A stretch of 46,664 bases of DNA from Saprospiraceae bacterium (lineage in GTDB: Bacteria > Bacteroidota > Bacteroidia > Chitinophagales > Saprospiraceae): assembly GCA_013214355.1 (NCBI GenBank), contig JABSSL010000105.1:1-46664 (forward strand), read 5' to 3'. The notes under the pieces are model-generated. The model did no database searches. It saw only the letters and a program-made list of their open reading frames with translations, and was not told the DNA's origin. Below, piece after piece: positions 212-16,906 of the stretch. A program made the translations under genes and the position numbers. How positions within the stretch are numbered: the first letter of the stretch is position 1; the number at the start of each line of letters is the position of its first letter.

Positions 212-254
212 GTTCTACATTTCCGAAGTCTTCGAGACTTCGGAAATGTAGAAC
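212..254. terminator. Bidirectional terminator hairpin, 20-bp perfect stem
   Basis: The arms 212-231 and 235-254 are perfect reverse complements over 20 bp, with a 3-base loop (tcg). The hairpin lies between two convergent genes and so could end both transcripts. It contains the stop codon and last 12 codons of the minus-strand TPR-CHAT gene. There is no long U-tract on either side. Confidence 0.8.
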
Positions 255-3200
255 CATTTCTTAACCAGCCAGCCCATGATAAGTAAGACCGGTATACTAA
301 GCCACCACCAAGACCAGCCCGTCCCAACGGCAATCGGTCCAACATCTCCTATCAGTATAAAGGGAGCCCAGTAAAAAGGATGCGCTTTGATATTCGACTG
401 CTCTTCAAGAAAACGAATTTTGGCTTGATGCAAAGCCTCATCCTTTGGTAGGTTTTGCTGAATGTTCTCATAGAACTGATACATCAATTCTTTCGTCGTC
501 TCATCATCAATACTCCAAAGTGTGGTTAAAGTACTCTTGGCCCCCGCATAGGCGAAGCCACGAGCTAAACTAATGATCCCCTCCCCTCTCTGATATTTGC
601 CCAAGCCAGTTTCGCAAGCACTCAGTACCACCATGGCTGCATTGAGCCGCATATCATAAAGATCTCGCGTAAAAAGAACACCTTGATCTTGTTCGATGCT
701 ATCGGGGCTCAGTGCGATATAGGAAAAAGCATCCGCTTTATCATTCAGTACCCCGTGGGTGGCTAGGTGAATGATATTGTAGGCAGGTGCTTCAGCTTTG
801 AATTCCTCCACGGTAGCATACTTGCTCACTTGGGCGGGTTGCATTAATTCCCCAATCCGCTCTACCTCCTGCTGGTTGTAGGCTAATGGATCAAAGGGAC
901 CGTCCTCAGCAAAGCTGGGCGCTATGCCTAAAAAGAATTTCGAAGGCTTAACCTGATAATTAGTTACCATTTGATGAAGTAAAGTAGCGGAGAAGGCATA
1001 GCTGATCTGATGCCGTTTAATGAGATAAGTATAAGACTTAAAGCGAGATATTTTTTCTGGGTATTTCTCCAGCAACAACTCAAAAGGGAGATAAGACAAA
1101 GCTCCATCCGGAATGATGATCAATTCTTGGGGTAAAGCCTGATCTGCCAAAGGGGCAAATACCTTCTCGTAGATACGGTGGGTGTAATCCGCAAATACCT
1201 CTAGGAATATATTAGCCGATTCCGTACTTGCCGTGGGAAAAGCCGTGATGGCTTCCCTTATATTAGCCATCCAACGCTCCAACTGAAAATCAAAAGGAAC
1301 TTTGAATAGTTGCTTCTGATCTGGCGTCAATAAGAAAATATAGAGATGCTCTTGGCCCAAGAAATACTCTATCAGTCCCTTTTCTCCGAAAAGCAATTCC
1401 TTTCTCACCTGTTCACTGCTGATCAACTGCTGATCATATTTCAATTGGTAATATCGAGCGTCCATTTGCTTCACTTCCTCCATCAAGGTTCGATGCTCTC
1501 CCTTCCACTTGGCTATCTCTTGATTGAGCTGAATAATGGAATCCCTACTGTCCGTTTCACTACTACTATTGAGCCAATCGTATCTTCGCTTCTCCCAATA
1601 GCCGATCTTGTCCAGAATCATATTCTCTCGCTCCTTCAGTGTTTCGGGTAAATCATTAAAGTTGAGCCCCTTGGATCGCAACAAAGCATCCAACAAACTC
1701 AGACTCTTACTTTTCTCGAAATGATTAAAGGCAGCCTCCTCCCAATCCTCTCCTGCTTCCCCTTTCTCTATCAAGGCATGTAGGCATGATAAGGCCCCTT
1801 CAAAAATTTCGAAGTTGGAAGCCACTAGAGTCTGGCGAGAAAGATCATCTTCGTAAATCAAACGGGTAGCATCCAAGAAACGGGTAGCTTTCGCATAGGT
1901 TTGGTAGGCTTCCAACAAGGTGGCCTGGTCCTGTGATTTTGCCAATAGACTGCGCGCCTTGGACTGTAACAAAGACAAATAAGCGGCCGGGATTTCCACC
2001 TGATCTTCAGAAAACAGAGACAAACCCTCCTCAGCCACGCTTAGGGCTTGTTGGGGATCCTGTAGTCGGCCATGTGCTAGGCTGATATTATTGAGGTAGT
2101 TGGCCAGTGCTGGGGATCTCTCCGGAAAGCTCGCTTTGGCCACTTCGTAGGCTCGGGTAAAATAAGTGAGCGCTTCTTGGTGTTTGCGCTGGTTATAGTA
2201 AAAGATGCCCAGATTATTGATCGGCAATAAAGTACTGATATGTCCTACCCCAAAGGCCCTTTCCGCAAGGGCCAGCGCCTTCTTGTAATAGTTTTCAGCT
2301 TCGGTAAACTCCTGCAGATCTAAATAGGCATTGCCCAGGTTGATTAGTGATGTACCGAGGTCTGGATCATTTCCTCCTAGTGTCTTAGCTTTAATGCCAT
2401 AAGCCTCCTCCAAATACACTAGACCTTCCTCCAAACGCCCTACTCTCCTACAACTAGTCCCCAGGTTTTCATAGAGCGCAGATAAATACAGTTGATCTTG
2501 GTAAGGACTTTCTTGCAGTACGCGTAGTGCCTCCTGATATATATAAAGTGCATTCCCGTAATCCCCTAGGTTAGCATAGCAATTCCCCATATCATTAAGG
2601 CTCTCGCTGATAGATGAGTGCACCACAAACAAACCAGCGCGCAATTGATAGGCACTGTCATATTGCGATAGGGCTTGGGCATAGCGTCCTTCTTCTTCTA
2701 GGCTATTCCCCATGCGGGTATGCCAATTGGCTAAGTCCATCTGCTGGCTAGGGAAGCGACGGAAGATTTGAATGGCCGACTGATAGGCTTCTCGGGCTTC
2801 CACTAGTCGACCTTGGGCTTGATGGTATCTAGCGATCTGTAACCAACTTCTTCCTAGACTAGGATGTCCATTTGGATATAGCTGGGCTCGCACATCTTTA
2901 GCCTTCTCCGCATACTCAAAACTAGCTTTGAAATCATTTTGGTAAAACCGCAGATCTGCCATGTTATAATAGGAAGAGGCGAGATCGGGGTGAATAGCTG
3001 GAAGTTCTTGTCGCCGCATCCGCAAAGCAGAGGTTAGCCACTTATCGGCAACTCGGTCCTGTCCAATGGCCAAGTAGTAGTTGCCTAGGTTAGAATGGCT
3101 GTTCGCCAGTTCTGGATGCCCCCAATCATAACGCTTTTTCCGAATCTTCAAGGCTTGTTCATATCTATTTTGTGCCAGATTGAAAGCACGCATATTCATA

Positions 3201-3559
3201 TGGTAGTTACCCAAATCATTGTATATCTTCGCCAAATCCAATTCATCTAGATCAGGATCTCCTGTCGCTAGGGTAAGCCCCTTTTGAAACAGCATTAAGG
3301 CCGAATCCAGAGCCGATTGCTCCAAGGCTACATTTCCTAAAATATGATAAGCTAAAATGATTTGGGATGGGTACTCTTGCGGGCTATTCTGGATTTGGGC
3401 CAAAACATTGGTGGCCAACTGCTGAGCCGTGGCGAAATCCGCTTCGCTCAGGGCTTGATCCGCTTGGGTAAGCACAGAATCGATCTTTGGGGGAATATTT
3501 TGGGCTTTCGCCGTAACGTTTAACCAAATAAGGCAACTAAGTAATACAAGCCGGTCCAT
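215..3559 (-). CDS. TPR-CHAT protein with C-terminal membrane anchor (CHAT 1)
   Basis: This 1114-residue protein starts at an ATG (3557-3559) with a signal peptide ending near TAKAQ. Residues about 60-560 are a long row of TPR or kinesin-light-chain-like repeats (LGNYYLAIGQ, NMGNCYANLGDYGNAL). The C-terminal third is a CHAT domain (caspase/separase fold) with its His in HLATHG (H935) and Cys in SACETG (C982). It ends with a hydrophobic segment (about 1082-1100) followed by Lys-Lys and a short tail, so the protein is probably anchored in the inner membrane with TPR and CHAT parts in the periplasm. CHAT proteins are known or presumed proteases that use TPRs to select partners. It is divergent from a sigma/anti-sigma pair. 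The two other CHAT proteins here lack the C-terminal anchor. The substrate is unknown. Confidence 0.9.
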   Translation of the reverse strand: MDRLVLLSCLIWLNVTAKAQNIPPKIDSVLTQADQALSEADFATAQQLATNVLAQIQNSPQEYPSQIILAYHILGNVALEQSALDSALMLFQKGLTLATGDPDLDELDLAKIYNDLGNYHMNMRAFNLAQNRYEQALKIRKKRYDWGHPELANSHSNLGNYYLAIGQDRVADKWLTSALRMRRQELPAIHPDLASSYYNMADLRFYQNDFKASFEYAEKAKDVRAQLYPNGHPSLGRSWLQIARYHQAQGRLVEAREAYQSAIQIFRRFPSQQMDLANWHTRMGNSLEEEGRYAQALSQYDSAYQLRAGLFVVHSSISESLNDMGNCYANLGDYGNALYIYQEALRVLQESPYQDQLYLSALYENLGTSCRRVGRLEEGLVYLEEAYGIKAKTLGGNDPDLGTSLINLGNAYLDLQEFTEAENYYKKALALAERAFGVGHISTLLPINNLGIFYYNQRKHQEALTYFTRAYEVAKASFPERSPALANYLNNISLAHGRLQDPQQALSVAEEGLSLFSEDQVEIPAAYLSLLQSKARSLLAKSQDQATLLEAYQTYAKATRFLDATRLIYEDDLSRQTLVASNFEIFEGALSCLHALIEKGEAGEDWEEAAFNHFEKSKSLSLLDALLRSKGLNFNDLPETLKERENMILDKIGYWEKRRYDWLNSSSETDSRDSIIQLNQEIAKWKGEHRTLMEEVKQMDARYYQLKYDQQLISSEQVRKELLFGEKGLIEYFLGQEHLYIFLLTPDQKQLFKVPFDFQLERWMANIREAITAFPTASTESANIFLEVFADYTHRIYEKVFAPLADQALPQELIIIPDGALSYLPFELLLEKYPEKISRFKSYTYLIKRHQISYAFSATLLHQMVTNYQVKPSKFFLGIAPSFAEDGPFDPLAYNQQEVERIGELMQPAQVSKYATVEEFKAEAPAYNIIHLATHGVLNDKADAFSYIALSPDSIEQDQGVLFTRDLYDMRLNAAMVVLSACETGLGKYQRGEGIISLARGFAYAGAKSTLTTLWSIDDETTKELMYQFYENIQQNLPKDEALHQAKIRFLEEQSNIKAHPFYWAPFILIGDVGPIAVGTGWSWWWLSIPVLLIMGWLVKKWFYISEVSKTSEM

Positions 3560-3954: not shown

Positions 3955-4548
3955 ATGAATATGATAACGACATTTTCTGACAAGGCTATTATCGAAGCTA
4001 TTGGAGCAGGAGGACAAGAGCGGCAGAAAGCTATCGCCTTCATTTACAGGGACAAAGCCTTAAAGAACCAAATCGTTGCCTTCGTAAAAAACCATAATGG
4101 AAACCATGAAGATGGAGTCGATGTATTTCACGAAGGAATTATAGCTTTTGATAAAAATATCCGCAGGGGAAGTTATAAGGGCGAAGGAAAGCTCAAAGGA
4201 TATCTGTACTCCACCTGCCGATTTATCTGGCTAAACAAATTGAAAAGGAATAAGAAGATCGTTTATACTGAGGAAGAAGCACAACTGGATCAGGTGCTAC
4301 ACGAAAACCCTGAATCCCTTTCCTTGGCCGAAGAGCAAAAAGATTTATTGAGGAAGCTATTAGGCCAGTTGGATACTAAGTGTGGTAAGATCCTAGAACT
4401 TTGGAAACTCTCTTACAGTATGGACGAAATTGCTCAGCAAGTAGGATTAAAAGACGGGAGTATTGCCCGTAGACAAAAGTATAACTGTTACCAAAAATTG
4501 TTACAAATTGTAGACAAAGCACCAAATTTGAAAAACATCTTAAAATGA
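3955..4548 (+). CDS. ECF-like RNA polymerase sigma factor (sigma 1)
   Basis: This 197-residue protein has the two-part layout of an extracytoplasmic-function sigma factor. A region-2-like helix carries DVFHEGIIAFDKNIR (about 58-72), followed by the basic stretch LNKLKRNKK. A region-4-like helix-turn-helix carries YSMDEIAQQVGLKDGSIARR (about 158-177). It would recruit RNA polymerase to a small regulon and is probably held by the membrane protein encoded 7 bases downstream. It is clearly related to sigma 2 at 30297 (shared DxFxE and D.N.R in region 2, YSM.EI in region 4) and not to the more classical ECF factor at 42450. It diverges from the CHAT 1 gene. Confidence 0.88.
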   Translation: MNMITTFSDKAIIEAIGAGGQERQKAIAFIYRDKALKNQIVAFVKNHNGNHEDGVDVFHEGIIAFDKNIRRGSYKGEGKLKGYLYSTCRFIWLNKLKRNKKIVYTEEEAQLDQVLHENPESLSLAEEQKDLLRKLLGQLDTKCGKILELWKLSYSMDEIAQQVGLKDGSIARRQKYNCYQKLLQIVDKAPNLKNILK

Positions 4549-4555
4549 TAATCCC

Positions 4556-5323
4556 ATGGAGGCGAACAATAATCATATCGACCTTATCGAAAAATACCTA
4601 AGCAATGACCTCTCAGTAGAGGAGCAACAAACGTTCGATCAAAAGGTCCATACCGATAGCGAATTTGCCCATGAATTCGAAAAGCGTCAGGCTGCACATA
4701 TAGCTATTGACTTCCTAATCGCAGAATCTCTAAAGAGTGAACTAGAGGCCCTAGAGGAGGAAGAGGAGCAGGGAGGGAAGGTTATTTCCCTACAGAAAAG
4801 AAAAAGAAACCGGATGGTTTTATTATCTTTAGCTGCGAGTTTACTACTGCTAATTGGCTATTTTTCATTGGTTAATACTAGTGGTGACCTGGGAAGTACA
4901 GGACCTCAGTTGGCCGCCGCGAACTACGAAGCTCCAGATTATAATATACGGCGCGGGAATCCCACAGTTGATTTCGAAGACCTTTTGACCAAGGGGATCA
5001 GTGCCTTGAAACAACGAAATTATCAGGCCGCCATAACCACCCTCGATTCAGTCGCACAGAGCAATGAATATTACGTTATTGCACAGTTTTATCTAGCCCA
5101 TGCCTATTACCAGGCAGAGCAGTATACCGAGGCTGAAGTAGCCTTTGATCTCGTCAGTGCCAGCAATGATATTCGATACCAGGAAGACGCAGATTGGTAT
5201 AGCTTATTAGCTTGTCTAGCCAAAGAAGGTAATTGCACCGAAAAAATAGATAGATTGGCTGATGACAATGGGCACTCTTATCAACAACAGGTCATCTCCA
5301 TCCGAGATGGCCTCCAAAACTAA
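4556..5323 (+). CDS. Membrane anti-sigma-like protein with periplasmic TPR
   Basis: The protein has 255 residues. The N-terminal helical part (IEKYLSNDLSVEEQQTFDQK) resembles Bacteroidota anti-sigma regions that lack zinc ligands. An acidic stretch (about 64-72) and a basic stretch (KRKRNR) precede one transmembrane helix at 87-106. Residues about 140-230 after the helix look like two or three TPRs (ISALKQRNYQAAITTLDSVA, AHAYYQAEQYTEAEVAFD). The topology implies a cytoplasmic sigma-binding part and a periplasmic TPR sensor. It follows the sigma gene by 7 bases, and its N-terminus and layout match the protein at 30886. That it binds and silences the sigma factor is inferred from gene order and layout. 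Confidence 0.78.
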   Translation: MEANNNHIDLIEKYLSNDLSVEEQQTFDQKVHTDSEFAHEFEKRQAAHIAIDFLIAESLKSELEALEEEEEQGGKVISLQKRKRNRMVLLSLAASLLLLIGYFSLVNTSGDLGSTGPQLAAANYEAPDYNIRRGNPTVDFEDLLTKGISALKQRNYQAAITTLDSVAQSNEYYVIAQFYLAHAYYQAEQYTEAEVAFDLVSASNDIRYQEDADWYSLLACLAKEGNCTEKIDRLADDNGHSYQQQVISIRDGLQN

Positions 5324-5363
5324 ATTTGCTAATTAATACTCTACCTCAATAAAACTAAAAATC

Positions 5364-6164
5364 ATGCGTAACCAATTTCTACAAACGACTTTATTGCTCC
5401 TTGCACTATGTCTTAGTTCTACCTTGTCCCTTGCGCAAGAAAAGATGTCATTTGAAGAGACACTTTTCAATGTGAAGGAGATCATGAGTACCTCTGATGA
5501 ACAAGCGGCAACAACCCGTCGGCAAGCAAAATTGGATGCCGCATTGGTGGGTTTCCTCGAAACCGACTTCATGACAAAATTTAAGGAGATCAGACTTGAA
5601 GCGGAAAGCTTAGCCGCCACCTTTAAGGCACACCAGATGGACTTTCAAGCCTCTGAAGTAACTAAAGTCAGAAAGTCTTACACGGCCATAGCTAACAAGT
5701 TCAACCTGAAATTGAGAGACATCAAATATGATTTCCTCAATAAGAAGAAGCTCAATATGATCCGAAAATACCCGGATATGTACTCCGGCAACCTGGAGAA
5801 TTCCTTGAGGGAGCTACAGGATGAATATTCTCAAACCTTCGAACGAGACGTGGCCGATGTTACTGGTAGTGACACTTATGCTGCAGGACCTTTGGTAGCC
5901 ATCTTCGGTATCATCAAACTGGCAGTAGAATTCACTGACTATTTGACTCGCGTACGCTATGACGCCCGCCGGATGAAAGAGGAACATCTTGATATGTACC
6001 TTATCGAAGCCTTCAGCTTCCGCCCTTGGGATGATATTATGGCCAGTGAAGGTAATACGGAAAAGCCTTATGAAGAGGAGGAAGAATATTACGATGAGGA
6101 AGAAGAGCACGGACTAAATCCGTTCGGCGAGACTAAAACCAAAAAGAAAAAGAAAAAAAATTAA
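5364..6164 (+). CDS. Secreted protein of unknown function, charged tail
   Basis: I do not recognise a family. The 266-residue product starts with a clear signal peptide ending at LSLAQ. The mature part is mostly predicted helical and rich in Lys, Glu and Asp, with a short more hydrophobic stretch (AAGPLVAIFGIIKLAVEF, about 174-191) that may be buried or a weak membrane segment. The last 30 residues switch from a run of Glu and Asp with Tyr to six or more Lys. The gene lies 40 bases after the anti-sigma gene on the same strand and is probably in its operon, so it may be part of the envelope response or a target of it. The other two sigma/anti-sigma pairs have no homologue of it. Confidence 0.7.
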   Translation: MRNQFLQTTLLLLALCLSSTLSLAQEKMSFEETLFNVKEIMSTSDEQAATTRRQAKLDAALVGFLETDFMTKFKEIRLEAESLAATFKAHQMDFQASEVTKVRKSYTAIANKFNLKLRDIKYDFLNKKKLNMIRKYPDMYSGNLENSLRELQDEYSQTFERDVADVTGSDTYAAGPLVAIFGIIKLAVEFTDYLTRVRYDARRMKEEHLDMYLIEAFSFRPWDDIMASEGNTEKPYEEEEEYYDEEEEHGLNPFGETKTKKKKKKN

Positions 6165-6976
6165 GTACTGTAAAACATAGTAAAACGGAGTACAGGTTAT
6201 TAGTTATTGGTAACTAGTGTATTGTCAAGAAGATAATATTTTTTGCCTTTACTAAGTACCTTACTCCTAGCCACAGCTCCTAAAGGAAAAGGCCTTGTTT
6301 CTTTTTTTTTCGGAGAAATTATTCTAATTTCGGTTTGTAATCCTAGTAAACACCAAATTGAAAATGTGTCTCATCTAAAATTGCGAGCTTATTTATTCTG
6401 AATAACAATCGCACGTTTTACAGACTCATGCTACCGGGCTGCAGATAGATTCGCAGTCATCAATGAACATTCTTGCATCATCACCCAAGTCTTCTAAACG
6501 AAAGATGACGATAAGCGTCACGATAACGTAACTACTGGATTCACAACCCCCTGGTTTTTACTTCGCTTAGCTGCTTGTTAATGAGATTTTGATCAATTGC
6601 TCCTAATTGAGGCTGAATGGTATTGTCCGTACCGATTGATCCTCCTTACAAAAGGCAAAGCAAAATATTTTTTGACTAAGTGGTAACACAGTCCATCGGG
6701 GCTTCATTAATAATCGAATTCACAAAGTTCTTTGAAATAATTTGGCCGGAATTACCCCCCCCTGTTTTAGGGTTACACAATGACGTTTTGAAAAAATCAC
6801 CCCGAAATGTTAAGAAAATCTTAAAATTATTTTTTTGGAGGACATATCCTGACCTCCAATTTACAATAACATGTAAGCAATTAATTTCAATACAGTGGTT
6901 AATCAACCCTTTCGATTTGACCGAAAACTCTGGTAACCAATTCGAAAACATTTAACCTCTAAAAATCACTATTATC
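6165..6976. other. Long non-coding stretch before the subtilisin gene
   Basis: These 812 bp are AT-rich. Two overlapping open frames of about 91 codons on opposite strands near 6676-6955 lack family resemblance or a good start and look like chance. A T-run at 6300-6309 follows a short palindrome (AAGGCCTT) and might end the sigma 1 operon, but the stem is weak. No tRNA, known riboswitch or clear -7 box was seen. Confidence 0.5.
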
Positions 6977-8365
6977 ATGAGAAATTTGTTTTTAACCTTC
7001 TTCTGTCTTGCAATCTGCGCTACTGTTGCATTCGCTCAAGATCCAGGAAACCCTGGAAAATCTGACATCCTTAGCGAGGAAAGCGACCTAGTGAAGGAAC
7101 AAAAATCAAAAACTGCTAAATCAATTGCGCCTAAGGGCACTGAAGTTCCTGTTAAGAAGTCCAAAACCAGTACAGCCAAAAAAATTCCTGGCCAGTACAT
7201 CGTGATTTTGAATGAAGATCAGGCTCAGTTTAAGTCTTTTGCTCAGCAAAAATCCAGTGAAACTAGTCGTGAAAGCCGAGCGGCAGCGGCGAAAAAGCAC
7301 GAGGCTGCTGCGAAAAAGGCTATTATTAAAGCAGCTGGTGAAATGGGCGTTTCTGCAGCAGAAATTGACCAGATCTTTACCGGTGCACAGAGTGGTTTCT
7401 CTGTTAAGTTGAAAAACAAAAAATCTGCTAGCGGTTGGTTTACAAAAGCCAAAAGCTCCAAATCTACCAGTGAAGTAATCGAAGATCAAGAAGTAGAGAT
7501 CTCTGCTCACTCAGTAGAATCCGTTATCGAAGGTAATACTGCCGCGGCTTGGGCACCACAATATGCTGACTATGGTAACTGGGTAGCTGGTGGTTGTAAC
7601 TGTAACGGCTACGGTAAGTGGATCTGGGTATTGGATACCGGTATTGACTTGAATCACCCTGACCTTAACGTAAGAGGTGGTGTATATGCTAGATCTTTTG
7701 TTCCAGGTGAGAATACTGCAGAAGACCTTCATGGTCACGGTACACACGTAGCTGGTATTTCAGCTGGTAAAAATAACAGCTTTGGTGCAAAAGGAATTGC
7801 TTACAATGCTTGGGTTGTACCTGTAAAAGTATTGAATCGCTACGGAAGTGGATCTTGGTCTGGTATCTTGGCTGGTTTGAACCACGTATACCGATATGGA
7901 ATCAGAGGTGACGTAGTTAACATGAGCTTGGGTGGATCTATCAGTGCTTCCGCTCCCCCTACTGCAGTAGAAAGAGCGATCAAGAGACTAGCTAACAGAG
8001 GCATCTACGTTGTAATCGCAGCTGGTAACAGTAGCAAGCATGCAAGAGGAGCTACTCCTGCCCGTGTAAACGGATCTAAGATCTACACTATCGCTGCTAC
8101 TCAAAAGAGTCCATACTGGTGGGCACACAGATTCGCTAGCAACTACTCTAACTACGGTAAGCCACCTGTAGACTTTGCAGCTCCTGGTTCTAGCATCTAC
8201 TCTACCTACAAAAATGGTGGATACGGATACATGTCTGGAACTTCTATGGCAGCTCCAAACTTCGCTGGTGCACTATTGTGCGGAACGAAGAACAAAAAAG
8301 GATACTACTACTACAAAGTCAGTCCTAGCAGCCACAAATTGTACGTAATTCGTGCGAAGAACTAA
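6977..8365 (+). CDS. Subtilisin-family (S8) serine protease with I9 propeptide
   Basis: The protein has 462 residues. A signal peptide ends at AFAQ (21). Residues about 72-145 form an inhibitor-I9-like propeptide (GQYIVILNEDQAQ to FTGAQSGFSVKL). The S8 domain follows with Asp220 (VLDTGID), His254 (HGHGTHVAG), the oxyanion Asn in VVIAAGNSS, and Ser423 (SGTSMAAPNFAG). A Lys/Ser-rich linker (about 145-165) separates propeptide and catalytic domain. It ends 39 residues after the catalytic Ser with no T9SS sorting domain, so it is probably exported by Sec and may stay periplasmic or leave another way. The S8 half favours GGT, GCT, TAC and AAC codons, unlike its neighbours, which hints at strong expression. 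The inhibitor gene downstream has a domain resembling this propeptide. Confidence 0.95.
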   Translation: MRNLFLTFFCLAICATVAFAQDPGNPGKSDILSEESDLVKEQKSKTAKSIAPKGTEVPVKKSKTSTAKKIPGQYIVILNEDQAQFKSFAQQKSSETSRESRAAAAKKHEAAAKKAIIKAAGEMGVSAAEIDQIFTGAQSGFSVKLKNKKSASGWFTKAKSSKSTSEVIEDQEVEISAHSVESVIEGNTAAAWAPQYADYGNWVAGGCNCNGYGKWIWVLDTGIDLNHPDLNVRGGVYARSFVPGENTAEDLHGHGTHVAGISAGKNNSFGAKGIAYNAWVVPVKVLNRYGSGSWSGILAGLNHVYRYGIRGDVVNMSLGGSISASAPPTAVERAIKRLANRGIYVVIAAGNSSKHARGATPARVNGSKIYTIAATQKSPYWWAHRFASNYSNYGKPPVDFAAPGSSIYSTYKNGGYGYMSGTSMAAPNFAGALLCGTKNKKGYYYYKVSPSSHKLYVIRAKN

Positions 8366-8427
8366 ATAGAAGAAGGATAGATTAACAGACGCTCAGCGTT
8401 TGAAGATCTTTAAAAACTGAATCATTT

Positions 8428-8463
8428 AGAACAGCTTCAGGTCAACTGGCCTGGAGCTGTTCT
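8428..8463 (+). terminator. Terminator of the subtilisin gene
   Basis: The arms 8428-8441 and 8450-8463 pair over 14 bp with one wobble and an 8-base loop. The stem lies 62 bases after the stop and is followed by a T-rich stretch (tcttctt). Confidence 0.75.
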
Positions 8464-8923
8464 TCTTAAATAATGGCTCAAAAAAGCTCTCTTTTTGAGG
8501 AAAAGATGTTCACCCTACCGTGCTAGTTGTTTTACCTGCTCAAGTTTCCATCTCAATCTTCTCCTTGCTACTACCGTAGCATTCTCTAGTCTCAAATAAA
8601 AGTTTCTCCATTTAGTAGGTTTCTCGTAAAATGGACTGCCTGATCGCCGTTCTATCCATTTAAGTAGAAAGTCGACCAATTATCCACGATTTCGACTTAA
8701 CTATCCAAGAAGTATTGACCTTTACCCTTGAATCATCGCAAATTTGTCCCGTATACGTAGAAGCCAGCTCCCCTTTATGGCTTTGTCTCAGACTTACTAT
8801 CCCTCAGTTAGCACTAGCACTATCTTTTCCTGTTATTCGTATCTGGTGATCACATCGATCTTGACCTTGGTTTAGCCTAGCGTCATCACCATCCCCTTTT
8901 CATAACTTCTAAAATTCTGCAAC
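8464..8923. other. Non-coding stretch before the inhibitor gene
   Basis: I see no coding region, RNA gene or convincing promoter motif in these 460 bp. With the terminator just upstream, the inhibitor gene most likely has its own promoter here. Confidence 0.45.
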
Positions 8924-9526
8924 ATGAAAATAAATTATACCTTTTTCTTGCTGGCTTTTGTCATGGTATTCATGGCCAGTTGCAATACATCTCCCAAAAA
9001 CAATCCTCAGGCGGTCACTGAGAAAATGACTGGAGGTGGAGATGACTGTATAGACGAATCATTGAAAGGTGAATATCCCTGTACCAAGGAAAAACGGCTA
9101 GTCTGCGGTTGTGATGGAAACACCTATGATAATCCTTGTTTGGCCAAAAAGGCAGGCGTATCCAAAACGACCGAAGGCCCTTGTACGAGTGGTTCCAACA
9201 AAGCTACGAGTTACATTATCCAATTAGATCCCTCGGCTTTTCCCGAAATAGAGAAGTTTGAAAAGGATAATCCAGGTAGCGATCGACCTAGCGCGGGAGG
9301 AGAAAGTGAAGCAGAGAAGTTTGCTAAAAAGCAAATCGTTAAATTTGCTAAGGAAAAACTGGACATTAAACCCACACAAATTACTCAATACTACAGTGGT
9401 CTCCTTTTTGGATTTGCCGCCACCATTCCGGCTAATAAAATTGACAGCTTTTTGGCCAAGCTAAAAACATTGAAGGAAGTCTCCAGCTACGAAGTAGACG
9501 GAGTTATGGATATCAAAAACAATTAG
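8924..9526 (+). CDS. Two-domain protease inhibitor lipoprotein: Kazal plus I9-like
   Basis: The protein has 200 residues. The signal peptide ends in a lipobox (FMASC, Cys20), so it should be a lipoprotein. Residues 42-87 form a Kazal domain with six Cys (42, 53, 61, 63, 72, 87) and the signature VCGCDGNTYDNPC. By alignment with ovomucoid third domain the reactive-site P1 residue is Lys55, expected to suit trypsin- or lysyl-type proteases. Residues 96-197 look like a stand-alone I9 subtilisin propeptide: a first strand SYIIQLD, a helix AKKQIVKFAKEKLD, then ITQYYSGLLFGFAATI and a closing EVSSYEVDGV. This resembles the propeptide of the upstream S8 protease (AKKAIIKAAGEMGV, FTGAQSGFSVKL). It lies between an S8 and a trypsin-fold protease gene, so it probably protects the cell from one or both. 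Target identity is inferred. Confidence 0.88.
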   Translation: MKINYTFFLLAFVMVFMASCNTSPKNNPQAVTEKMTGGGDDCIDESLKGEYPCTKEKRLVCGCDGNTYDNPCLAKKAGVSKTTEGPCTSGSNKATSYIIQLDPSAFPEIEKFEKDNPGSDRPSAGGESEAEKFAKKQIVKFAKEKLDIKPTQITQYYSGLLFGFAATIPANKIDSFLAKLKTLKEVSSYEVDGVMDIKNN

Positions 9527-9641
9527 AAGCCACCTCTAGCACGTATTTTTGGATACTTTTTATCACCTAATTTCCCAACAAGTTTCGATTTAGGAAAGGA
9601 TAGCAATTATCTCTACCCTCAGTCGATGAAAATGCTTTCAA

Positions 9642-12323
9642 ATGAAAAAGCTTACAATTCACTTGTGCCTCCTCTTATTTATAACCCCGTTTCTGGGGGC
9701 ACAGAACGCAACTATCAACCCAATCAACCGAGATCTTTCCACAGTTGAACAAAAACGCATGGTACAGCTCGACAACCAAGGGCTTTACGATGAAGAAATG
9801 AAAAACCGCGAAGCTGGTGAGCTTCCACATTTTGCTCATAAACTCCTAGTTGATTGGAATTCGGATGAGGATGGTACCTGGATATCTACCCAAGGAAACC
9901 TCGCCGTTTGGAGACTGCGAATCACCTCAAAAGAAGCTAAGTCTCTGAATTTTGGCTTCAGTAAGTTTCGCTTACCTCCCAATGCCAATCTAATTTTGTA
10001 TACCACTGACTTTAAGGACCTGGTAGGGCCCTTGACCAGTGCTGATAATAAAGAGCATGAAAGACTTTGGACGCCTATCGTCCTAGGAGATGATGTAGTA
10101 ATCGAAGCTCAGATACCTCAAGATGAAGTAGATCAATTTGCGCTAGAGATTAGTGAGGTCAATCACGACTTCATGGGTATCAATAGTTTAATGACCACCT
10201 CTGCATGCCATATTGATGTTAACTGCGGTACAGCCAATGGTCACCCTGAAATAGAAGATTTTCGAGATCAGATTCAAGCCGTAGCGATGTACACTTTAAA
10301 TGGCGATCGTACTTGTTCTGGCGCACTGATCAACAATACGAATCAGGATTGTCGGCCATTCTTCTTGACCGCTAATCACTGCGATATCGATACAGAAAAT
10401 GCCGCGACCATTGTCGCCTATTGGAATTACCAAAATAGTAGCTGCCGGGACTTGGGAAGTGACGCTAGTGGAGCGGACGGAGATGGACAACTAAGTGTCT
10501 TTAATATGGGTGCTAGTTTAAGAGCGAGTACCCCTAAGACAGATGTTGCCCTAATTGAATTTGACAATGCTGTTCCAAACAACGCCAACGCCTATTTCGT
10601 GGGGTGGGATCTAACGGAAACTATGGCTACCAAGGTGATCGGCATTCACCATCCACAAAGTATGGAGAAAAGGATCTCTTTCGAGAATGATGCTGTTTTT
10701 CAAGGTACTAATAATGGTGATGCCGATGAAAACGGCAACTATATCATAGTACCAGACTGGGATTCTGGTGTGACGGAGGTAGGATCATCTGGTTCTCCTC
10801 TATTTAACCAAGATGGCTATGTAATCGGCCAACTCTTCGGAGGTTTGGTCTATGATGATGTGAATTGCGGCGCCGGTGAGCAAACAGACTTCTACGGCTG
10901 GATCAATAAATCTTGGGAAGGATCAGGTTCTATGGATACACGTCTAAGAGATTGGCTAGATCCTCAGGGAACTGGTGTTACCTTGCTGGATGGCAAGTAC
11001 CAGGATGGTTGCCAAGCTTTGTCTATTGCAGATACCTATCAGGCCGTTTGTGCACTAGACAACAACCAAATCAGTTTCGATCTTACGGCAGGGTCCGGCG
11101 GTTCTGTGAATTTGAGTGTGATAGAGAAGCCAGGAGCCATGACGGCTAGCTTTGCTTCTTCAAGCTTGCAAGCAGACCAAAGTACGACCTTGACGCTAGG
11201 GAACCTGAGTGCTTTACCAACCGATGATTATACCATTACGGTACAGGCTAGCTTTGGAGGCAGTACTTCGGAGTTCACCTTATTATTGGTCCTCTTACAG
11301 AACGTACCCGATTTGGTGAATTTGACAGAGCCTGCTAACGGCTCCGATGGTGCTCAATTGACGCAACCACTCAGTTGGGACCCTGTAATTAATGTAAACA
11401 GTTATTCCTTGCAACTGGCTACTGATGCTGACTTCCAAAATATTATAGCAGAGGCGGTTGACTTCGTTGGTACTACCTATCTACCTGGCGTAGTGCTAGA
11501 TCAAGGAACTTTACATTACTGGAGAGTAAGAGGAAACAATGCTTGCGGTACTGGAGATTGGTCCCCTACAGCTAGTTTTACCACTTTGGATAACAATTTC
11601 CAGGGTTGCATTACCTTGAATGGCCTCGATCTTCCCATCAATATCGATGTAGCAGATTCCGGAGATTACACCTCAACTATTAACTTTCCTTTTGGAAGTG
11701 ATGAGGATATCGTTGAAAAGATTAGAGTGATAGATATCAAAGGTGCGCACAGTTGGATTGGAGATTTAACGATGCGACTAGAAAGTCCAAAAGGTACCAC
11801 CGTAACTTTGATCGAAGAAGAATGCTTTGACTCCGAAGATTTTGAGATTGGCTTCGATGATTTGAGTCCTTTCCCACTTTCTGCCTTGGAGTGTCCTTAC
11901 GAAAACAATATCATTTATGCTCCTCAAGATTCTTTAGCTAACTTTATTGGCGAAAACCCGAATGGAGATTGGAAACTAACTGTAGCAGACGGCGTACCAG
12001 ATGATGGAGGTGTTTTCAATAGCTGGACAATAGAGATTTGCCTTGGGATGGTTAGTCCTACTCGTGAAGTCATTCCACCAAGTAGTATCAAATTATTCCC
12101 CAATCCAGCCCGAAACACGGTATTCCTAGCAGTAGATCACCAGATTAGTACCCAGGACATGATGGTAAATGTGCTCAATCTGCAAGGAAGTCGTTTATTA
12201 ACACAACGGGTGAATGCTACCAATGCTACGGAGCTGGACATTTCACAAATGGCCCCGGGAATGTACATTGTACAACTATTAGTCGAAGGACAAATGGTCA
12301 ATAAAAAACTAATTATCCATTGA
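9642..12323 (+). CDS. Trypsin-fold secreted protease with P-domain and T9SS signal
   Basis: The protein has 893 residues. A signal peptide (ending GAQ, 21) is followed by a beta-rich prodomain (about 22-185) of the kind seen in lysyl-endopeptidase-like proteins. The trypsin-fold domain (about 188-430) has His246 (LTANHCD), Asp301 (KTDVALIEF) and Ser383 (VGSSGSPLF) with several Cys, as in lysyl endopeptidases. A fibronectin/Ig-like domain (about 545-645), a proprotein-convertase P-domain (about 653-803, IGDLTMRLESP, NGDWKLTVAD) and a type A T9SS sorting domain (KLFPNPARN, MAPGMYIVQLL) follow. It should be released or surface-attached. Lys specificity is a guess from family layout. It is the first gene of a tight three-gene run, 4 bases before the C1 protease. 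Confidence 0.93.
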   Translation: MKKLTIHLCLLLFITPFLGAQNATINPINRDLSTVEQKRMVQLDNQGLYDEEMKNREAGELPHFAHKLLVDWNSDEDGTWISTQGNLAVWRLRITSKEAKSLNFGFSKFRLPPNANLILYTTDFKDLVGPLTSADNKEHERLWTPIVLGDDVVIEAQIPQDEVDQFALEISEVNHDFMGINSLMTTSACHIDVNCGTANGHPEIEDFRDQIQAVAMYTLNGDRTCSGALINNTNQDCRPFFLTANHCDIDTENAATIVAYWNYQNSSCRDLGSDASGADGDGQLSVFNMGASLRASTPKTDVALIEFDNAVPNNANAYFVGWDLTETMATKVIGIHHPQSMEKRISFENDAVFQGTNNGDADENGNYIIVPDWDSGVTEVGSSGSPLFNQDGYVIGQLFGGLVYDDVNCGAGEQTDFYGWINKSWEGSGSMDTRLRDWLDPQGTGVTLLDGKYQDGCQALSIADTYQAVCALDNNQISFDLTAGSGGSVNLSVIEKPGAMTASFASSSLQADQSTTLTLGNLSALPTDDYTITVQASFGGSTSEFTLLLVLLQNVPDLVNLTEPANGSDGAQLTQPLSWDPVINVNSYSLQLATDADFQNIIAEAVDFVGTTYLPGVVLDQGTLHYWRVRGNNACGTGDWSPTASFTTLDNNFQGCITLNGLDLPINIDVADSGDYTSTINFPFGSDEDIVEKIRVIDIKGAHSWIGDLTMRLESPKGTTVTLIEEECFDSEDFEIGFDDLSPFPLSALECPYENNIIYAPQDSLANFIGENPNGDWKLTVADGVPDDGGVFNSWTIEICLGMVSPTREVIPPSSIKLFPNPARNTVFLAVDHQISTQDMMVNVLNLQGSRLLTQRVNATNATELDISQMAPGMYIVQLLVEGQMVNKKLIIH

Positions 12324-12327
12324 TACG

Positions 12328-13911
12328 ATGAATAGAATACTAAGTATTTGCGCCTTATTGCTGTTCGTTGTCCCAGTCTTTAGCCAGTCTTTTCCGACAG
12401 GCTTGGAATTTGATGATGAAGCCTATGAGTCGCAAGCCTTTACTTCTAGCGAAATTCAATTCGAAGGATCAAAAGCAATGGTGCGCCAGGTAGACCTGGC
12501 GCCCTATTGTCCTGAAATCCGGCACCAAGGAGATATTTCTTCTTGTGTTGGCTGGTCAGCTGGCTATGGAGCCCTGACTATTGAACGAGCCATAGCCAAT
12601 GACTGGACGGATAAAAGTATGATCACAGAGAATGCCAATTCGGCCTTATTTATTTACAATCAAGTACAAAAAGGAGATTGTACCAACGGAATTGTGATCA
12701 GCAAAGCCTTAGAAGCACTCCTAGAAAAAGGCAACTGCCTAGCCAAGGAATATGATTTTGATGTGAACGACTGCGGCAGAGAGCTTACCGATAACCTCTT
12801 TGCAAGCGCTCGGCAATATCAGATCAGTGACTATGTTCCTCTCTTTAAGAGTAAGGCCCCAGCAGAGGAAAAGATTCAAATGACTAAACGTGTTTTGTCC
12901 CAGCGTAAACCCGTAGTGATCGGGATGCGGATTCTACAAAATTTTCTACAGATCCGAGAAGGAGACAAAAGCTGGTGGCCTGCTATCGGAAGTCAGACTC
13001 CAGCTGGAGGCCATGCCATGGTAGTAGTGGGCTTTAATGATGACAAGTTTCGCCCTAGAACCAAAAATCCAGACCCTAACATGGCCGGCGCCTTTAAGAT
13101 CATGAACAGTTGGGGAAAAAACTGGGGAGACGATGGCTTCATTTGGGTTCGCTATGCGCATTTTGCAGAGTATTGTCGGTATGCCTATGCGCTCATTCTG
13201 CAGGACGGGGCGCCAATTGATCTTTCGGAAGAAGCAAATGTAGCTGCCCAGGATGGCCCCAATGCCGCCACGGCTACAGCTACGGCTACCTCCACTGCTG
13301 CTGCCTCCGCTGAAACTCGAAGACTCAGAAACCTATCGGGTTCCTTTGGTTTTCAGCAATTTACAGGCGAATGGAATGGTAACGAGCCCATCTTCGAAGA
13401 GGCCAAAGTCAAATTACAAAATGGCTACTACACCCTAGCGGGAAGATCTAAGGTTAGGGATAGATTTCAACTCTATGTAAAGAGTGGTTTCGACAATGGC
13501 TATATTTATGTCTTTAGTGTAGATCCAACAGGTAGAATCCAGGTGCACTTCCCCAAGAAACAATCTAACAATATCAATCTAAAAGCTCGCGAATCAGCCA
13601 TGGTCATGAGTGGAGGCGCCTTACTGAACATTCCTGGTGGCAAGAAGGTTTTGGCGCTCAATAACCCTGGAGAAGATCACTTGGTGGTCCTATTCTCCAC
13701 CCAAAAAATCACTCAAGAACTCCAATCGTTCTGTGAAAAGTTATTCAAGGACCAAGATGATCTGGTTAGTTCTATTTACAAAAAGCTGAATCAATGGATG
13801 ATTACACCAACTGATATTACCTATTCTCGCTCTGGGATGGGATTTGATGTCAGCACCAGAAGCGAAGGAAAAATTGTACCTATAATATTAAAAGTTAACG
13901 TCTCAGAATAA
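12328..13911 (+). CDS. Papain-family (C1) cysteine protease with DUF4384-like domain
   Basis: The protein has 527 residues with a signal peptide ending at VFSQ. The C1 domain starts almost at once, without a long propeptide: oxyanion Gln67 (IRHQGDISS), Cys73 (SCVGWSAGYG), His229 (GGHAMVVVGF) and Asn260 (KIMNSWGKNWGDDGF) are all present. An Ala/Thr-rich linker (about 305-330) leads to a C-terminal region (about 345-475) resembling DUF4384 (GYIYVFSVDPTGRIQVHFP), a domain often found with caspase-fold and kinase proteins. No T9SS sorting domain is seen, so it is probably periplasmic. It sits 4 bases after the trypsin-fold gene and 7 bases before the caspase-fold gene, in one apparent operon. Confidence 0.92.
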   Translation: MNRILSICALLLFVVPVFSQSFPTGLEFDDEAYESQAFTSSEIQFEGSKAMVRQVDLAPYCPEIRHQGDISSCVGWSAGYGALTIERAIANDWTDKSMITENANSALFIYNQVQKGDCTNGIVISKALEALLEKGNCLAKEYDFDVNDCGRELTDNLFASARQYQISDYVPLFKSKAPAEEKIQMTKRVLSQRKPVVIGMRILQNFLQIREGDKSWWPAIGSQTPAGGHAMVVVGFNDDKFRPRTKNPDPNMAGAFKIMNSWGKNWGDDGFIWVRYAHFAEYCRYAYALILQDGAPIDLSEEANVAAQDGPNAATATATATSTAAASAETRRLRNLSGSFGFQQFTGEWNGNEPIFEEAKVKLQNGYYTLAGRSKVRDRFQLYVKSGFDNGYIYVFSVDPTGRIQVHFPKKQSNNINLKARESAMVMSGGALLNIPGGKKVLALNNPGEDHLVVLFSTQKITQELQSFCEKLFKDQDDLVSSIYKKLNQWMITPTDITYSRSGMGFDVSTRSEGKIVPIILKVNVSE

Positions 13912-13918
13912 CTCAACG

Positions 13919-16906
13919 ATGAAACGCTTACTCATAACCCTAGCAACCATTATCCCCTTCTTTTTGGCCGCCCAGCCTAGCAAAACACCCCTTTGGGATG
14001 ATATCATTGGCACCAATAATTCTAATGTACTCAGCAAGGTGATTGAAGCTACCAACGGTAATATTGCTGCCGTTGGAGAAGTACATGGGGGCGGTAAAAA
14101 TGGGCTTTTTGTCCTCTACGACTTCAGTACCGGAACTCAACTAAAGCGTAAGAGCTACGGCGGTAAAAAAGATGATGTCTTACAATCTATAGTACAAACG
14201 GCTGATGGCCATTTTATTCTAGCTGGCTATTCTGCCTCTTTCAATGCTAAAGCCGCTGGTTGGCTAATTAAGGTAGACGAAAAAGGCAATGAAATTTGGC
14301 AGCAAGACCTCGGCACTGGAGCGGAAAATCGCTTCTATGAACTGGTCATGCTACAAGATCAAAGTTTGGTCGCTTGTGGAATCAAAGATGGTCGATTGTG
14401 GATGTATAAGTTTGATAGTGATGGCAAAAAGATTTGGGACAAGACCCTAGTCGCTGTGCCCATGGGTACGGTACAGGGAATGCAAGTCAACGCCAAGAAT
14501 GAAATCTTCGTTACAGGTAATACGGTCAAATCTGGTGATACCCGAAAAGACAATATCTACGTGGTGAAGACCGATGCTAGCGGCAAGCATATTTGGGGCC
14601 ATGAATATGGAGAAAAAGGATGGGAAGAAGCCCAAGATCTCATCATCACTGCAGATGGAAGTGTGGTTGTAGTAGGAAATACGATCAATGGAGGTTTTGG
14701 AAAAATAGACATGCTGTTGCTTAAGATTAATGCCCTTTCCGGCACCCAACAATGGTCTGCAACCTTTGGAGGGCGTGAAGATGATTTGGCCTCTTCAGTC
14801 ATTGAAACTTTCTCTGGTGAATTTGTCGTTGTTGGCAAAACTTACTCCCATGCACGTGGAGCTAGAGATAGCAATGTACGTCTAGTTGGTGTAGGTAGAG
14901 GCGGAGATCGTCTATGGGAAGTAGATCCCGGCAAAGAAAAAGACGACGAAGGGCGCCATATTTTGCAGCTGCATGACGAAAGCCTCCTTTTCGTTGGCCG
15001 TACCAATCAGCGAGAAAATGGAGCATGGGTCACCCGCCTCGCCGCTTTAAAACCACCTACCCTTATCTCAGCCAAAGGAGAATTCAACATCGCAAGAACC
15101 AAGTTTTGGTTAAAAACGGCTGATGGATACCTCCAGCCCAACTCTCGTTCCTACGTATCCTTTAACATCACGAATCAAGAATCATTCGATTTAGACAATG
15201 TCAGTGTCCGATTGGTGGATCAGAGTCAAAACCAAGAAATTTCCTATTGGGCCAATACTTATCTGGGGCCCTTGAAGCGAGGCGAGACGAGGGAAGTCCG
15301 TATTCCGGTCTCAGCCAAACAGATTGCAGAGACCTCAGATAATCGCTTTGGTGTTACAGTACTGTCTAGTAATCAGCCAATTTCAGCCTTTACGGAAGTA
15401 ATTAAGACCAAGAATCCAAGACCAGCCACGCTGGTTATTGCCAAGGACTTCGTTAGGCCAGAAGGTAATACGGAATTCAGTCCTCGGAACATCACTTTAG
15501 AGGTAGAAAACAAGGGTGACCAAGTAGCCAATGGCGGTAAAGTGATCATCAATGCACCAGAAGGCATCCAGGTATTAGGGGGCCGTGAGCTACCTTTGGG
15601 ACAGATCCTCCCTCGTGCCCTCAAGCGCTTGAATATCAGGGTGCAAAAGAAGGCACAATTTGAAGGAACTAGTACGGTCATAGAATGCGTAATCATCGAC
15701 GCCCAAGGGAAGAGAACCCGTAAGAACATCAATGTGAGCTTTGATGTATACGTAGCGGCAGATGGCTTTGAGGATATTCTATTTACCTCCCCCAATGAGG
15801 CGAAGATGAATATCAAACGCGTTACTTCGGACCGCGCCAACTTCCGTATTGAAGCCACGATTAGTACCGCCCAAGGAAATCTTTCCCCGCAAGATGCACG
15901 CGTGAGAATAAATGGAAGAACGCCGGACAATTCTAAAATGGATGAGGAAAACTTACAACCTCCTACACAACGTGCTGGGAAGTTTCGCTATGCTTACGAA
16001 AATGTACTTCCATTGGAAGAGGGTGAAAACAGAATCACCATTGAATTCAAAACGGATAATGGTATTCTGCAATCTCGAGAGCTCATCGTAAACTATACGC
16101 CCAGGAAGCCTAATCTACACGTGCTATCCATTGGCATTCCACATCAGGATTTGAAATACACTACTAATGACGCCAAGGATTTCGCTTCGATGTTCCAAAA
16201 TCAAGCAGGCAAGGATAAAACCTATGAAAGAGCTTTTGTTGAGTCCTTGTATAGCGCGGAACAGACCAGAAAAACCCCCATTTATGCAGCTTTTGCAGAT
16301 CTTCAGCGTCGATATCGTAACGAAAACCGAGAAGACCAGATTAAAGATGATGATGTATTGATCGTATTTATCTCATCACATGGAAAAGAAGACAATGGAT
16401 CTTTCAAGATTTTGGCCTCAGATTATCATCTGTACCCCACCGCAGCCATGATCGATTATCAGAAGGAGGTCCTTGAAATCTTGGAAGGTATTGAGTGTAA
16501 GAAATTTGTATTCATCGATGCCTGTCATAGCGGTGCAGCAGAAGGCGGAAGAGAATCTTCCATCCAAGTGCGCCGCGCACTAGAAAAAATCAACAATGCC
16601 TACCCTGGCTTAAATGTGATTACTTCTAGTCAACAGGATCAACTTTCTTACGAAGACGATCAATGGCAAAATGGTGCCTTCACGGAGGCCACCATGGAAG
16701 CCTTCAACAACACACTTTGCACGGACGATAGCGGCTCCTATTTGGCCGATACAGACAGTAACAAGTACATCACTTTTGATGAACTATATGACTTCCTGAA
16801 AAAACGTGTACGCGGCTTGGTTAAGACCATAAAAGGCAAAGACCAAATGCCGAAAAAGAATGAGAATGAGAGTGGAGGAGATTATCCAATTTTTATCCTT
16901 CACTAA
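13919..16906 (+). CDS. Secreted caspase-fold (C14) protein with propeller N-terminus
   Basis: The protein has 995 residues with a signal peptide ending at FLAAQ. Residues about 20-380 are a repeated pattern typical of a beta-propeller (DGHFILAGYS, DGSVVVVGNT, SGEFVVVGKT). Two or three Ig- or CARDB-like beta domains follow (about 390-725). The caspase-hemoglobinase domain spans about 730-990, starting LHVLSIGIPHQDLKYTTNDA, with His821 (ISSHGKED) and Cys869 (FIDACHSGA). It lacks a T9SS sorting domain, so it should act in the periplasm unless exported otherwise; bacterial caspase-fold proteins are more often cytoplasmic. It is the last gene of the run begun at 9642. The substrate is unknown; the co-encoded C1 and S1 proteases are candidates for activation or as partners. 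Confidence 0.92.
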   Translation: MKRLLITLATIIPFFLAAQPSKTPLWDDIIGTNNSNVLSKVIEATNGNIAAVGEVHGGGKNGLFVLYDFSTGTQLKRKSYGGKKDDVLQSIVQTADGHFILAGYSASFNAKAAGWLIKVDEKGNEIWQQDLGTGAENRFYELVMLQDQSLVACGIKDGRLWMYKFDSDGKKIWDKTLVAVPMGTVQGMQVNAKNEIFVTGNTVKSGDTRKDNIYVVKTDASGKHIWGHEYGEKGWEEAQDLIITADGSVVVVGNTINGGFGKIDMLLLKINALSGTQQWSATFGGREDDLASSVIETFSGEFVVVGKTYSHARGARDSNVRLVGVGRGGDRLWEVDPGKEKDDEGRHILQLHDESLLFVGRTNQRENGAWVTRLAALKPPTLISAKGEFNIARTKFWLKTADGYLQPNSRSYVSFNITNQESFDLDNVSVRLVDQSQNQEISYWANTYLGPLKRGETREVRIPVSAKQIAETSDNRFGVTVLSSNQPISAFTEVIKTKNPRPATLVIAKDFVRPEGNTEFSPRNITLEVENKGDQVANGGKVIINAPEGIQVLGGRELPLGQILPRALKRLNIRVQKKAQFEGTSTVIECVIIDAQGKRTRKNINVSFDVYVAADGFEDILFTSPNEAKMNIKRVTSDRANFRIEATISTAQGNLSPQDARVRINGRTPDNSKMDEENLQPPTQRAGKFRYAYENVLPLEEGENRITIEFKTDNGILQSRELIVNYTPRKPNLHVLSIGIPHQDLKYTTNDAKDFASMFQNQAGKDKTYERAFVESLYSAEQTRKTPIYAAFADLQRRYRNENREDQIKDDDVLIVFISSHGKEDNGSFKILASDYHLYPTAAMIDYQKEVLEILEGIECKKFVFIDACHSGAAEGGRESSIQVRRALEKINNAYPGLNVITSSQQDQLSYEDDQWQNGAFTEATMEAFNNTLCTDDSGSYLADTDSNKYITFDELYDFLKKRVRGLVKTIKGKDQMPKKNENESGGDYPIFILH

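Follow-up and report, generated by a model that had tools for sequence, protein, structure and literature searches.

One gene in a Saprospiraceae genome joins a Kazal domain to a homologue of S8 subtilase propeptides within a single predicted lipoprotein and lies between an S8 subtilase gene and a gene of the lysyl endopeptidase type. It occurs in the window, by which we mean the whole 46,664-nucleotide stretch analyzed here, a contig (C8) of an 11.2 Mb genome. The gene order recurs in related genomes, and both domains are plainly under purifying selection. We infer that the protein is lipidated, that it sits on the periplasmic side of the membrane, that it inhibits proteases, and that each of its two heads has its own target. 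Our preferred explanation, to which we assign a probability of about 0.6, is a lipid-anchored, two-headed inhibitor that, like the potempins of Tannerella forsythia, guards the cell that makes it against that cell's own proteases.

The inhibitor gene (8924..9526, forward strand) is an open reading frame with an ATG start that encodes 200 residues. Two sister genomes carry orthologues that are 83.5% and 82.5% identical to it. Its seven cysteines comprise C20, at the lipobox, and six in the Kazal part (42, 53, 61, 63, 72 and 87). The signal peptide and lipidation cysteine (8924..8983, forward strand; lipobox VFMASC) were assigned by eye alone. In both sister proteins the residue before the cysteine is Asn, which makes the lipobox less usual, and Cys20 plus the next ten residues show no difference among the three fused proteins. 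Acidic residues after the lipidated cysteine are described as a surface export signal (PMC5080379). No acidic run occurs from Cys20 through the tenth residue past it, and positions +2 to +6 hold no acidic residue, so a surface export signal of that kind is absent. The anchor, with lipidation itself predicted, would face the periplasm.

The first-pass annotation read this protein as a fusion of a Kazal domain and an I9-like propeptide domain, and both parts are borne out. The Kazal domain (9047..9184, forward strand) is of the bacterial CGCDG type. It matches Pfam Kazal_1 at E 4e-4, a near miss at 20.8 bits against the curated cut-off of 21, and Kazal_2 also falls short (19.4 bits, cut-off 22.8). 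In a phmmer search of PDB sequences, leech tryptase inhibitor (1an1, E 1.9e-5) came out as its best solved relative, and a Foldseek search with the inhibitor model returned two Kazal inhibitors, 4hgu (E 0.044) and 1an1 (E 0.047). The six-cysteine frame and the reactive loop are both present (C42, C53, C61, C63, C72 and C87, with CGCDGNTY). Relative to the classical frame, Cys V is replaced and the CGC motif carries an extra cysteine. This CGC variant is found in all 56 Kazals matched by pattern, which come from 28 of 29 loci of the order.

By position, P1 is Lys55 (codon 9086..9088, forward strand), the second residue past the second Kazal cysteine, and it is Lys in all three fused proteins. 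The cysteine frame, the position of the reactive loop and the Lys P1 are common to this domain and to Kazal (I1) inhibitors such as leech LDTI, from which it differs in being fused to an I9-like domain. Basic P1 residues are frequent across the Kazals of the order: 17 of 56 distinct domains from other genomes have one (9 Lys, 8 Arg). Within the source genome, five other Kazal domains in four loci carry T, Q, I, E and E.

The putative target of the Kazal head is encoded 115 bp downstream (9642..12323, forward strand), an arrangement in which the gene of a predicted lipoprotein immediately precedes that of a T9SS protease. Its product has a P domain and a T9SS tail (Por_Secre_tail, E 1.4e-12 in a Pfam scan), and phmmer aligns it with lysyl endopeptidase 4nsv (E 9e-56, residues 187-455) and with Achromobacter protease I (API), 1arb (E 3e-53, residues 187-453). 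On 1arb, His246, Asp301 and Ser383 fall on the triad positions and Asp416 falls on chain residue 225, and Phe399 occupies the position of His210. We take Asp225 of API to set the preference for Lys, and we assume the triad numbering and the roles of residues 210 and 225 in the same way. On these alignments the downstream trypsin-fold gene is of the lysyl endopeptidase type, and we call it LysC. It had been suggested that Lys55 would suit a trypsin- or lysyl-type protease such as the downstream one; a Lys P1 does stand beside a gene of the lysyl type, with binding itself a prediction. The Kazal frame with its Lys P1 and the likeness of LysC to 1ARB both argue for self-protection. Against a pairing of the Kazal head with LysC count the frequency of basic P1 residues in the order and the Phe at the His210 position.

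Two further protease genes follow on the forward strand: a papain-like C1 peptidase (12328..13911; Peptidase_C1, 1.8e-9) with a DUF4384-like region that scores under the cut-off, and a caspase-like C14 protein with PQQ-type repeats (13919..16906; Peptidase_C14, 1.6e-12). In all four sampled genomes of the genus, the C1 gene comes after a LysC gene and the caspase gene after C1. The cluster as a whole (3955-16906) runs from a sigma-factor-like protein (Sigma70_r2 at 22.3 bits, where the cut-off is 24) through a TPR protein, one of 266 aa, S8, the inhibitor, LysC and C1 to C14/PQQ, and the order is identical in the sister locus L001. Bordering it are a 1114 aa TPR-CHAT protein (215-3559, reverse strand) and a 2815 aa protein with SprB repeats, PKD and FG-GAP domains and a CHU_C T9SS signal (17266-25713, forward strand). 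Promoter and terminator scans for operon signals stayed at about the level of shuffled sequence.

The I9-like domain (9206..9514, forward strand) does not match Pfam Inhibitor_I9 and does not reach its curated score, and a search of the whole source genome with that family gave nothing at E 1e-3. The clade's own S8 propeptides also lie below the cut-off (8.7-16.1 bits or no match), and a stand-alone I9-like copy scores 13.2 bits against a cut-off of 21.2. Taken alone, the Pfam result would have told against the I9 reading, which a profile built from relatives restored. This profile, A1, was made from seven inhibitor sequences with S8 proteins excluded, and it matched four S8 propeptides of the source genome at 3.6e-9 (the neighbor), 4.2e-9, 3.7e-8 and 1.2e-7. 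Profile-profile alignment by hhalign against 11 S8 propeptides gave E 1.2e-16 and a probability of 98.8. Single-sequence searches with the I9-like part found S8 propeptides weakly (E 0.076 for the S8 of the window, 3e-4 for that of C179), and within a small set of ORFs, S8 proteins of other genera matched at roughly 1e-7. As judged by these profiles, the I9-like domain is homologous to S8 propeptides well beyond chance.

A resemblance to the propeptide of the upstream S8 protease in particular had been noted, and of this the kinship with the S8 class stands, on both A1 and hhalign, and specificity for the neighbor does not. The flanking S8 and an unlinked paralogue score alike (3.6e-9 and 4.2e-9), so the propeptide likeness points to the class as a whole, and a pairing with the neighbor is not visible at the level of sequence. 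That the head is not closest to the neighboring S8 counts against self-protection. The shared motif lies exactly where it had been placed (AKKQIVKFA at inhibitor residues 134-142, AKKAIIKAA at S8 residues 112-120) and arises at rates of 5e-6 and 3.5e-5, respectively, in 200,000 shuffles each. We also considered the head as a recent copy of the flanking S8 propeptide and rejected this, as inhibitors and S8 propeptides of the genus stand apart in a domain tree, in which the split has weak support (79/92) and long branches.

An AlphaFold2 model of the I9-like region (residues 95-191), computed from a five-row alignment of two inhibitors and three S8 propeptides, has the propeptide topology. No PDB entry reached E 1e-3 in Foldseek. 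The top rows (E 0.026-0.079) were MORF proteins (0.026), which we take to be members of the plant DAG-like group, the two Kazal structures above, and chains of 91-92 residues from a fungal S8 protease that presumably represent the prodomain; the MORF match and the 92-residue chain, at E 0.069, lend weak support to a propeptide fold. Plant DAG-like genes are described as related to the inhibitor I9 domain (PMC5515838). Glu190 and Asp192 are unchanged in all seven inhibitors, and their Glu-x-Asp spacing resembles that of Glu69 and Asp71 in the BPN' propeptide, which are described as capping helices (PMC6993865). The tail after Asp192 (9500..9523, forward strand) is a candidate active-site segment by analogy with the I9 mechanism; residues 194-200 have pLDDT below 50.

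Upstream lies the subtilase gene S8a (6977..8365, forward strand; Peptidase_S8, E 7e-35), the putative target of the I9-like head. Its catalytic residues D220, H254, N351 and S423 are present by motif, the Pfam scan found no T9SS tail, and its propeptide (7190..7501, forward strand) is matched by A1 at 7193-7507. In two sister genomes, G373 and G433, a second subtilase gene, S8b, sits immediately before the inhibitor (L001 6109-7578 and L064 732-2132); these copies are 94% identical to each other and about 60% identical to S8a. The corresponding site in the window is 8613..8674. On one side, 8201-8612 aligns with L001 5505-5911, the stretch that ends after S8a, and on the other, 8675-8744 aligns with L001 7711-7780, the stretch after S8b, so intergenic DNA is retained on both sides of the place where L001 carries S8b. 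A tblastn search with S8b found no remnant in 8363-8923, and no orthologue is among the four S8 genes found in the source genome (the nearest is 64% identical). Either loss in the source genome or gain in the sisters would account for this. An inhibitor that stays where S8b is missing counts against a self-protective pairing with the adjacent S8.

The fusion is present in three of four sampled genomes of the genus (G000, which is the source genome, G373 and G433), with the order S8, inhibitor, LysC, C1 and caspase in each; contig C366 of G373 and L001 share gene identities and were counted once. In the fourth genome (G307, 80% complete) LysC, C1 and caspase are kept and the contig stops 211 bp short of LysC, cutting off the place of the inhibitor. 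The first-pass annotation had asked whether the same fusion would be found beside S8 genes elsewhere or mostly away from proteases. Both sister genomes have an S8 gene before it, and all three fusions lie between S8 and LysC; the refuting outcome did not arise, and this position argues for self-protection. Samples of the order (298 genomes, among the matches listed), family (398), phylum (395) and class (395), as well as plasmids and viral contigs, yielded no fusion beyond the genus.

In the order, 115 of 298 genomes match the inhibitor, nearly all through the Kazal part; outside the source genome, the matches listed are Kazal-only except for one S8, and loci L002-L004 match in the Kazal part only. 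The I9-like part is matched in nine of the 398 family genomes: four of the genus, four of genus g28 and one other. The g28 matches are ORFs of 440-446 aa, and both of the two checked are S8 proteins. A TreS-maltokinase-like protein that matched the I9-like part in the family sample was taken as a chance match. The phylum and class samples returned the source genome only, and plasmids and viral contigs returned nothing.

All four genomes of the genus also encode a secreted I9-like protein without a Kazal domain (149-163 aa, with uncertain starts; L069 9194-9643 on contig C161 of the source genome, L067, L068 and L065), a candidate for a bacterial counterpart of POIA1. No S8 gene lies near these genes in stretches of 14, 11, 8 and 3.5 kb. 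Such stand-alone copies away from S8, together with the Foldseek result at 1e-3, count against self-protection.

Selection on the fused gene was estimated from three species pairs. Full-length dN/dS is 0.03-0.07; the Kazal domain gives 0.006 and 0.04 with the third pair saturated, the I9-like head 0.03-0.06, and the signal peptide and linker 0.13-0.22, all rough ratios with dS at 0.8-3, near or at saturation. The homology to S8 propeptides, the predicted topology, the Glu-x-Asp pair and the low dN/dS argue together for self-protection.

LysC-like genes occur in 182 of 398 family genomes at 1e-40, and from this list we inspected 80 LysC loci outside the genus, many of them truncated where the contig stops, and with more than one locus from some genomes. 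A Kazal gene is present in two, both from genus g186. In one (L146 7346-11280, G343), a T9SS LysC is followed 83 bp on, on the same strand, by a three-Kazal protein that is a predicted lipoprotein by eye, with Lys, Arg and Lys at P1. The other (L206, G409) likewise has three Kazals on that side of its LysC, again with Lys, Arg and Lys at P1, and both sampled g186 genomes carry the protein. Basic P1 residues in four of four domains from the window and L146, against the background of 17/56, would have p of about 0.008 under independence, an assumption that tandem domains violate. In the reverse direction, none of 39 Kazal-centered loci contains LysC at 1e-4, and S8 occurs in three, two of them weak matches. 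The pairing of Kazal and LysC recurs but is rare. The g186 locus supports the predicted Kazal-LysC half of the pairing and, with the potempin precedent, speaks for self-protection; the counts of 2/80 and 0/39 speak against it. In a separate locus (L166; G011, contig C81), a Kazal near 9598 lies about 6 kb from an S8 at 2849-3505; in the catalytic domain, this S8 and the one in the window share 52% identity.

The closest precedents differ from this gene in instructive ways. Potempins of T. forsythia are lipoproteins encoded directly before the KLIKK T9SS proteases (PMC7296668, PMC4404884), and their specificity for the downstream enzyme is given in PMC7296668 as unpublished data. As with our gene, a small lipoprotein, predicted in our case, is encoded immediately ahead of a protease; the descriptions in those papers, on which our comparison rests, mention no Kazal or S8-propeptide domain and no pairing with two proteases. 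PMC6993865 names stand-alone propeptide-like inhibitors from Pleurotus (POIA1), yeast (the peptidase B inhibitor), Arabidopsis (SPI-1) and Plasmodium (SUB1-ProM, whose gene is syntenic beside subtilases), as well as TgMIC5; they span fungi, plants and apicomplexans. These have the propeptide fold outside a protease, and inhibit S8 enzymes; the fold is shared by prediction here. The inhibitors named there are eukaryotic and free-standing, whereas ours is bacterial, predicted to be lipidated, and joined to a Kazal head. In Bacteroides, C10 proteases are accompanied by neighboring, cotranscribed inhibitors (BtiA, BtiB and Bfi), with membrane-associated and periplasmic inhibitors discussed in PMC3462683; inhibitor genes there adjoin protease genes within Bacteroidota, as here, but the targets are cysteine proteases and the inhibitors are one-headed, with a predicted beta-sheet, staphostatin-like fold. 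The fusion had been thought undescribed, and among the papers listed by our search of the open-access literature on Kazal domains with I9, bacterial lipoproteins or Saprospiraceae, none dealt with a Kazal and S8-propeptide fusion. The parts are known and the principle is known; the combination is new.

If the protein protects its producer, the Kazal head would offer Lys55 to the S1 pocket and block the LysC encoded directly downstream, should LysC turn active either ahead of its T9SS export or following it. As a free-standing relative of S8 propeptides, the I9-like head would cap subtilases of the S8 group, with its C-terminal tail lying in the active site as a product-like inhibitor. The idea that each head matches one of the two flanking proteases survives in the domains, the S8 kinship, the LysC type and the conserved position; it is weakened by an I9-like head that is no closer to the neighboring S8 than to other S8s. 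A more elaborate version, in which the fusion acts as a timer or switch coupling two clans in a protease cascade rather than as a double lock, strikes us as very improbable: the Kazal bait would first hold active LysC, which would then cut the lysine-rich I9-like head and free the subtilases.

The same evidence bears on three other explanations. The inhibitor might face outward and block foreign proteases of prey, competitors or eukaryotes, in which case its S8 and LysC neighbors would mark a general proteolysis island. Kazal proteins are indeed common in the order away from LysC (115/298 genomes; LysC in 0/39 Kazal loci), and lipoproteins of Bacteroidota can be surface-exposed according to PMC5080379. 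We nevertheless consider an outward role unlikely, given the position kept between S8 and LysC in three genomes, the missing acidic export signal past Cys20, a Lys P1 that fits the neighboring enzyme type and a propeptide homology that points to the cell's own S8s. Less likely again is a role for the I9-like head in folding, as a chaperone that acts in trans on S8 or S8b-type enzymes and leaves inhibition to the Kazal head. S8 propeptides are described as serving as both chaperone and inhibitor (PMC10580911), and S8 genes do lie upstream, but the S8 genes here retain their own propeptides, so a chaperone in trans would be unneeded, and the propeptide-like proteins named in PMC6993865 are inhibitors. 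We are just as doubtful that the head is a relic or a non-inhibitory binding module in this genome, made for S8b for example, with only the Kazal domain active. An inhibitor retained without S8b in the window, and a head that by sequence is not tuned to S8a, would fit such a relic; the invariant capping residues Glu190 and Asp192, the four S8 genes found in the source genome and a dN/dS of 0.03-0.04 for the I9-like head in two pairs that involve the S8b-less genome all argue for a working domain.

If the two-headed, self-protective inhibitor is real, one anchored bacterial protein would lock two unrelated classes of protease. The potempin principle would then extend from Tannerella to other Bacteroidota, and a bacterial propeptide inhibitor fused to a Kazal domain would add a contrast to the free-standing propeptide inhibitors named in PMC6993865, all of which are eukaryotic.
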